Shown here piece by piece: positions 55,901 to 58,900 of a stretch of 64,000 nt of DNA. A model generated the notes under the pieces. That model saw nothing but the letters and a program-made list of their open reading frames with translations. It was not told the DNA's origin and searched no databases. Both the position numbers and the translations under genes were made by a program. Where the stretch lies: the NCBI RefSeq assembly GCF_021134715.1, contig NC_060019.1, positions 10,058,001-10,122,000 of the forward strand, written 5' to 3'. Within the stretch, counting starts at the first letter, position 1, and each line of letters starts with the position of its first letter. This DNA is from Daphnia pulex (Eukaryota > Arthropoda > Branchiopoda > Diplostraca > Daphniidae).

Positions 55901-58900
55901 TCACCCAAGCCCTCGTCTGCTTTAAAGCCAATTTACAGCAGTTGGACAGGGAGTGGGGGGGAAATAAAGAGCAGAGAGAGAGAGCGAGAGAGAGAGAGAG
56001 CGACAAGAGGTGCGTAGAGAGAAAAATATGTACAAAATGGATGGCGGGGTAAACGTAAAAAATAATAATAATAATAAATAAAAAAAACCAAAATATGGCG
56101 GTAGGGTATTTGGCGGACGACACGAACACACACACACACGGAAAAAAAGAAAAAAAAAAAGAAAAAGAAATTGGATTAGTTTGACCGTTGGCGGACTGCG
56201 CTAACCTGTTGGTGTGTGAGAAAATGAAGAAGCTCGATCCTCTCGGGATGGGCTTGATCAATGTGGGCGTTTCATCAAACCCAGGAGAAGGCCGCCGATG
56301 AGGTCGGGCCGTTATTTGCACGTTAGTGTTCATCATTTGCTCATCAGCTCCATCGACTCCGTCCCCATCGCTCGTCCTCGGCTCCTCTTCTATGTTGGCA
56401 TTTTCACAGTCCACACCAATCGTGTCCATCGTGTCCAATCATACATTGTTTGTCTAGCTCTTTCTAATTCCCCTTTTTTTGTCAGGCGGTACGTCTTCTC
56501 AAAGTTATCAGCATCGTCATCCGTATCTTATTCATTCTTCCGGTGCGGAATTCCGCACACGACATTTCTTTCCCCCTCCCGCAAGAATGACGTGCCATTG
56601 AGGAGACATGCCGTCTGCAGGGCTACATTTTTCAAGCACATTCAGAGTGAATTGTTACCGTCTTTACTGGCGTCCTCGGTTCCCTCGTCGTCGTAATCCT
56701 GTTCGATTTCAATTATGGTGGAGCTGCCATCCGCTTTTCTATTAAAATAAATTTGTATTCGCATGAATTTTTCACTTGGCTGCGACACAAACAAATAATA
56801 AAAAGAAAAAACCACTCGCTTCTTTTTAGAGGATCTCTTCCGGTCGGACATGCCGTCCGGGCTGCCGCCTGTTTGGGCGTTGTCCTCGTCGTCACCTCCT
56901 TTGCTGTCGTCGCCAACGTTGTCCTCTTCTTCTTCCTCGTCCAATTCTTCTTGACTTCGATCGTCACCGTCTTTCGTTGCCGAATCACTCGCCGCCGATT
57001 TATCTAAGTCAGCTTCAGCTTCCGCCTTGGCTTCGGCTTGGTCAGCCTCTTCCTTCTCGATAGCCGTCAACGATTCAGCATCGGCCAAGTTGTCCACAGC
57101 GATGGCCAAGAAGACATTCAGCAGAATGTCTATTGATAGATTTAAAGATACCAGTTATTCAGGGCAAAGGGGGGACGACGAAAGATCCAAGTTGTTCTTA
57201 CAGTTGCCGCAGATGAAGAGAATAATGAAGTAGATGCAAGCGAGAATACCCAGAGATGCTACACCCCCGTAGGCTTTAATACCGTCGTACATGACCGCAT
57301 TCCAATCTTCGCCCGTCAAAATCTTTTCGACCCCAGGAGAAAAATCAAATAAATCCGTCCAATTAGTGAGGATCAAGACGACATTAAACGGGTACAGGGA
57401 GGATGGAAAAAGGAGATAGAAAAGCCATCACCGAAACTGAAAGAAGACCACCACCACATGTATTGTTACCTGAAAGACGGTTAGTAAACTTTGCCAGAAG
57501 GAATCAAAATTGCTTCTCGGCAATTCTTGATTCTCAAAGTTGAATTTGCCGCCAAAGACTTGCATGCCCAGCAGGGCAAAGATGACCATGAAGAGGAAGA
57601 GGAGCAATAAGAGAGACGCGATTGATTGGATCGAGTTGAGCAGCGACGCCACCAAGTTGGAAAGTGAGCGCCAATACCTGCGTTATTAATACCGGCCGCC
57701 ATTCAGTTAAGATTAATACATTATGGGGATGACGACGTCTCCTTGCTAATAATACAGTATGTACACACAAATTGGCTACAGTATACTAACTCACAACGGA
57801 TTAGTGACACAGTAAGCGTTTGTACTACACGGCACGAAAAGATTATTTAACGTTAACGACGAGCCGCTCGTTACCTGGGAAACGGTCAAAAAGGAATCCC
57901 AGGTTGAATCGAAATTGCTACGGTGACCGGGAGGAAACCGGCCACCGAAAATCTGCGATCCCAGCACGGCGAAGATGAATATAAACAGAAAGAGAAGAGA
58001 CAGGAGCGAGAAGACGGATCGAATGGCGCTCATCATACTGCGGATTTTGCCCATTGGAAAGCAAAATCTTGGGAGTCATCCGTAGAAGACAGACGAGAGA
58101 AAACCATGCAAAAACGTATAATTTGAAAAAATAAAAAAATTCCACACATGCTTTCGTTCATGCAACAGACATGCCTCAACACAAAGACGTGCCTCGTTAA
58201 ATGACGTCAACTCTTACTTTGTAACTTTGAAGACTCGGAGGAGACGGACACAACGTAACACGGACACACCCAGAGGGGGCATGAGGTCCGTTTTAGTTAG
58301 GACCACTTCGACAATACTGCTGATGACGACGAAACAGTCGAATCGATTGAACAGCGACACGAAATAACCCTACAGGGAATAGACGATGAAAAGATATATA
58401 TTGAAGAAAACCCTTTTCAACGTCTGATTTTGGCTCTTCTTACTTGGAATCCCAGGCTGTACATCTTCAGCAACATTTCAAAGGCAAAGAGCACGATGAA
58501 GAAGATATTGGTCACATCTGTCGTGAGGCGGATGGAAGAAAAAGTCAAGAGCAGTCGAATGCTATTAGCATTTAAAGTGCAAAGCAAACAGCAGTCGTCC
58601 TATACGATGGATATATTACCTTGGAAGAAATCCAGCCATTCGGGTTGTTGATAGTGCTCGGTTGCTAGGACGCCCGTGTTCAGAAACACCAAAATGATGA
58701 TCAGCCAATAAAAAGCCTGAGATTTGACAGCTTTGCGACAGGCCCGGCGCATACGACGATTGCTCCTGTATACGGGAGAGAAAAAAGGAGGGCAACCGTG
58801 GATAAAGAAATGATGTAAGATGTCTTTCAGCTCCAGTGAGCAAAACAGTCTGAGTATACCGATCCCAGTTGCGCTTCTTCTGCGCCCACCACGAATCCTG

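Follow-up and report, generated by a model that had tools for sequence, protein, structure and literature searches.

The Cav1 (L-type calcium channel) alpha-1 gene of Daphnia pulex appears to carry a tandem pair of mutually exclusive exons, 13A and 13B, encoding alternative versions of part of the domain II pore (Table 1). We put the probability of this reading, two neighbouring and mutually exclusive exons in a Cav1 gene of an arthropod, at about three in four; on the evidence below the pair is real and most likely functional. It belongs to a known kind of feature, and its site looks new for Cav1; no description of an IIS5 exon pair in Cav1 was found in the open-licence literature, subscription papers falling mostly outside that scope. 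Positions are those of the window, the whole stretch of 64,000 nucleotides that was analysed.

The gene, which by its sequence is a Cav1 alpha-1 gene, lies on the minus strand and runs from about 63535 downwards. The spliced model is free of stops and encodes 1787 amino acids with 13A and 1792 with 13B; the gene ends may be incomplete, and a 36-nt gap between exons 15 and 16 may be coding. Filter motifs of all four repeats (LEGW, GEDW, FEGW, GEAW; the EEEE ring) are found in a single open frame. Compared with solved structures, the canonical form (13B plus exon 14) matched L-type channels best (4.7e-68), ahead of N-type (1.8e-58) and T-type (9.8e-38); 13A by itself matched a Cav2 R-type structure (4.8e-16) slightly better than the best L-type one (3.2e-13). 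The first intron of the model, 63248-63117 (-), has the look of an AT-AC (U12-type) intron, with atatcctt at its 5' end and ccttaac before the 3' end cac.

Table 1 Exons and intron at the alternative site in domain II of the D. pulex Cav1 gene; positions refer to the window.
Feature	Position	Strand	Description
Exon 12	58218..58369	-	IIS3-S4 region; ends FKVTK, phase 2; common to both forms
Exon 13A	57875..58067	-	Alternative A-type: IIS4-S5 linker, IIS5, 9-residue turret, most of P1; ends TVSQ
Intron 13A-13B	57678..57874	-	197 nt, GT-AG
Exon 13B	57470..57677	-	Canonical: IIS4-S5 linker, IIS5, 13-residue turret, most of P1; ends TVFQ
Exon 14	57202..57322	-	Common to both forms; filter ILTGEDW and start of IIS6

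The earlier note had described two adjacent, related exons with identical phases, and coordinates, phases and sequences were all confirmed. Both exons are entered in phase 2 (exon 12 ends AA|gtaaga) and left in phase 0; their lengths, 193 nt for 13A (65 residues in frame) and 208 nt for 13B (70 residues), are both 1 mod 3. All splice sites are GT-AG, with the donor CAG|gtaac in both exons and the acceptors cccaag|A (13A) and acgcag|G (13B). Either exon alone reads through, skipping of both gives KF*, and inclusion of both leads to a stop inside 13B, so that the premature stop claimed before is borne out by frame arithmetic; the two exons are therefore alternatives at the level of usable protein. 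In a hand-gapped alignment 33 of 64 codons encode the same residue in 13A and 13B. When the genome (133,188,837 bases, 13 contigs) was searched with 13A, 13B was its best match after itself (E 4.2e-12, 58% over residues 9-65; seven matches in all with E no higher than 10). An origin of 13A from another genomic locus was considered and rejected; the next match after 13B is a Cav2-like exon on contig C8 (55%).

The replaced segment is larger than the label of IIS5 and domain II pore entry first given to it: besides IIS5 it takes in the S4-S5 linker, turret and the greater part of P1, and it ends before the filter. By alignment to 8we6 (residues 632-741), 13B corresponds to residues 632-701 of human Cav1.2. 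The filter glutamate (human 706) is encoded in exon 14, five residues beyond the end of the exon pair, and the filter is thus not switched. Between FGG and FD the turret has 9 residues in 13A against 13 in 13B. Compared with the canonical sequence, 13A has Ser for the Met of GMQ and Ser for the Phe of TVFQ (human 700, P1 helix), a Phe that is kept by the other three repeats of the same channel (LTVFQ, LTLFT, LVLFR). It is also fast-evolving, having lost one linker residue and changed YW to FC.

Relatives of 13A were found in other organisms. Among some 5.8 billion proteins searched, 13A had seven matches, two of which, P0001 (64%) and P0002 (62%), cover all of it; a profile of these three gave 106 matches, from which P0008, P0009 and P0010 were added as A-type, the other 101 reading as canonical Cav1/Cav2 or other channel pieces. 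The peptide ends of P0001, P0002 and P0008 (R-Y-W start, Q-V end), as read from protein alone, fit the same splice phases; P0009 and P0010 are visible at the 3' end only. Placement in Cav1 beside a canonical exon is known for 13A, the other five A-types being known from protein only; no A-type locus with flanks was found in a single scan each of viral_contigs and genome_contigs. The turret has 9 residues in all six A-types, a set named after its features had been seen, and at least 10 in 217 of 219 readable other sequences (one has 9, one 7). At the P1 position 220 of 225 rows have F, four S and one V, and all five without F are A-type (228 rows, three of them unread: P0091, P0100 and P0106; the rows were gathered by likeness and include many near-copies, 150 being distinct). 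The sixth A-type, P0009, keeps this F and retains both TVFQ and GMQ. The middle residue of GMQ is T, T, T, S, S and M in the A-types, and M (217), T (two) or V (one) in the others.

The A form was found in none of the 120 full-length proteins among the matches listed (of 2359), as read by pattern for 106, by eye for 13 and separately for P0217, with the proviso that 90%-identity clusters can hide isoforms. Most of these 120 are insect proteins; the rest come from lancelets, molluscs, an acorn worm and a coral. All 120 have the P1 Phe (119 by pattern, P0217 by eye). A full-length A form resembling P0001 would be expected to rank near the top of such a listing. IIS5 is canonical in all ten Drosophila proteins compared.

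Two further observations concern the same place in the channel. P0096 and P0097 are IIS5 exon peptides with GTQ for GMQ and an 18-residue turret, which form a long branch beside P0015/P0041; they are possibly another alternative form. P0126, a Cav2-like model from the acorn worm Glandiceps talaboti, has two successive IIS4-S5/S5 copies before one filter; the Cav2 gene behind it may have tandem exons at this position, both of which the annotation has included.

In trees of 144 distinct rows the six A-types fall on one side of a branch (SH-aLRT 95), and in those of 43 chosen rows they group at 99/95, although the alignment has 71 columns only and long branches meet in this group. The group was kept when long rows were dropped: 100/94 without P0010, 100/96 without 13A, 99/95 without P0010 and P0008. 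Forcing 13A beside 13B lowered lnL by 25 and was not rejected (p-AU 0.128).

Because these relatives exist in other organisms, 13A is probably a real second channel form and not a decaying copy. That it should be a decaying duplicate, a pseudo-exon left open by chance and hardly used, is unlikely, for all that several observations would suit such an origin: 13A is the most changed among the Cav1 exons compared, its sister placement with 13B was not rejected in the test just given, its acceptor is weak (rank 31/35), and the A form is missing from the listed full-length proteins. In a neutral simulation, moreover, 43% of the runs falling to 65% identity were still free of stops, so that the open frame alone is weak evidence. 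Set against this are the intact phases and splice sites of 13A and the lack of any frame-shifting indel, which in the same simulation had a probability between 0.19 and 0.007, depending on the indel rate assumed. The relatives themselves speak against decay, and of the 32 columns in which the other A-types do not vary 13A keeps 25, compared with 17 of 33 variable columns in which it matches P0001 (p 0.038). Differences between 13A and 13B by codon position number 26, 18 and 41 (64 codons). A lack of protein-level constraint on 13A, which the earlier note had named as a finding that would count against the pair, is argued against by A-type relatives with the same turret length and other shared departures; we are less sure of constraint within the D. 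pulex lineage.

The surroundings of the pair were compared with the rest of the gene. The three introns around it measure 150, 197 and 147 nt against a gene median of 79 (36 introns), and with matrices built from the sites of the same Cav1 gene the acceptors rank 30/35 (13B) and 31/35 (13A) and the donors 6/36 (13B) and 14/36 (13A). Long flanking introns and weak acceptors are compatible with regulated splicing but are no proof of it. An RNA structure that switches the exons was considered and discarded, no convincing pairing having been found. None of 20 shuffles of a stretch of 895 nt around the pair folds as well as the real sequence (z -2.17). A ten-pair hairpin extends from the 13A acceptor, 58068-58038 (-), and is followed by a second AG, giving an exon start at 58037 which is in frame and would remove ten linker residues from 13A. 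This hairpin is unremarkable (z -1.17; 24 of 200 shuffles equally good). No competing complementary boxes were found, the search giving one palindrome and one direct repeat, formed by the homologous 3' ends of the two exons. That exclusivity comes from a steric or U2/U12 clash is unlikely, given the intron of 197 nt between the exons and the GT-AG sequence of all sites.

By another explanation the pair is mainly an expression switch: double inclusion or skipping would shift the frame and send the transcript to decay, so that exon choice would tune the amount of channel. The early stops in both wrong products and the weak acceptors on both exons are in keeping with it. We regard it as quite improbable, as the frame with 13A alone is open over the full 1787 amino acids and the A form has protein features in common with other organisms that a pure decay switch does not need.

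On the preferred reading, a mutually exclusive pair yielding two channel forms, the choice between 13A and 13B would vary with cell type or stage, and transcripts with both exons or neither would be lost. A channel with 13A would retain its filter (the EEEE ring, GEDW in domain II) and would differ in the IIS4-S5 linker and S5, in a turret four residues shorter and in a Ser for the P1-helix Phe. Such differences might be expected to change how the second voltage sensor is coupled to the gate, as well as the packing behind the filter, and so to alter gating, permeation or the dihydropyridine response with no exchange of filter residues. An effect of the switch on gating, drug binding or conductance, as proposed from the sequence in the earlier note, is plausible by analogy with mutants. 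In a worm screen, dihydropyridine resistance arose from a change in IIS5 (rat S666), and, in a double mutant, from one at rat I702 (PMC2362100); when numbered by the 8we6 alignment, S666 lies inside the exon pair and I702 is the first residue after it. A table in that paper lists F1112 of domain III as needed for the calcium-linked dihydropyridine interaction (PMC2362100), and this residue is, by alignment, the counterpart of the Phe missing from 13A. These residues make altered gating, altered packing behind the filter and altered drug response the leading guesses.

A further possibility is that the A form switches cation selectivity in the manner of Cav3 exon 12a. In Cav3 the domain II exons 12a and 12b differ in a turret lysine that switches the preference between Ca2+ and Na+ (PMC9694082, PMC7382465, PMC4436565). 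Both exon pairs lie in corresponding parts of domain II, and in both the shorter loop belongs to the alternative form, as described for 12a (PMC9694082, PMC7382465, PMC4436565). The Cav3 effect rests on one turret lysine beside the filter aspartate (PMC9694082), whereas no extra lysine is common to the six A-type turrets (the residue before their shared Arg is H, R, R, R, C and S) and the cysteine framework is lacking (a single cysteine is present, in P0009 only). With neither lysine nor cysteines shared, a Ca2+/Na+ switch is not predicted for the A-types, and we hold it to be very doubtful.

A wider proposal can be put forward only tentatively: in several invertebrates the A-type exon may be an ancient half-pore of L-type domain II with an evolutionary course of its own, giving a Cav1 that differs clearly in gating, in permeation or in its response to dihydropyridines. 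Such a half-pore would be convergent with the Cav3 exon 12 switch and would act through the S5 and P1-helix core, not through a turret lysine. Muscle, heart and nerve cells take up calcium through L-type channels, and a natural channel without the P1 Phe would offer a ready test of the roles of this residue and of the IIS4-S5/S5 unit. Such a channel would also show that exon duplication had given Cav1 a switch in the domain II pore, as in Cav3 and NALCN. Studies of drugs or pesticides on the L-type channels of crustaceans may be mixing two channel forms.

A second tandem pair was seen in the same gene just before IIIS1, at 56389-56206 and 55916-55700 (-), 184 and 217 nt long; both exons are entered in phase 1 and left in phase 2. 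The ten Drosophila proteins divide between these two forms, six being PIPRGSAFFIFS-like and four PIPPGTSFFLFS-like, and by this resemblance the pair looks to be shared with flies. Our guess is that it corresponds to exons 15 and 16 of Ca-alpha1D.

Among known systems, the closest precedents are Cav3 exons 12a/12b and NALCN exon 15. Human Cav1 genes have alternative exons at IS6, IIIS2 and IVS3, and the insect para sodium channel has mutually exclusive domain II S4-S5 exons in a roughly corresponding position of that repeat. Human CACNA1C and CACNA1D have three tandem events apiece and Drosophila Ca-alpha1D has two, all human and fly events hitting different exons (PMC9741552), and exons 15 and 16 of Ca-alpha1D are mutually exclusive (PMC4174434). 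The D. pulex pair resembles vertebrate and Drosophila Cav1 in consisting of tandem duplicated, mutually exclusive exons (PMC9741552, PMC4174434), and differs from the switch visible in the ten Drosophila proteins, which lies before IIIS1 and leaves IIS5 canonical. Crab and lobster Cav1 have been catalogued (PMC5096308), and splicing of cacophony is treated in PMC12370356 and PMC11828482. The NALCN exons 15a/15b (domain II) and 31a/31b (domain III) are likewise tandem, mutually exclusive pore exons of a four-repeat channel; they change the filter residue (E or K; PMC3557258), whereas the filter in D. pulex Cav1 is encoded in exon 14. Invertebrate Cav3 exons 12a/12b are mutually exclusive domain II exons that end before the filter, one form having a shorter S5-P loop, as for 13A and 13B (PMC9694082, PMC7382465, PMC4436565). 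Unlike 13A and 13B they span S5, turret and P1 without the S4-S5 linker, and the lysine and cysteines on which they depend are absent from the A-types.
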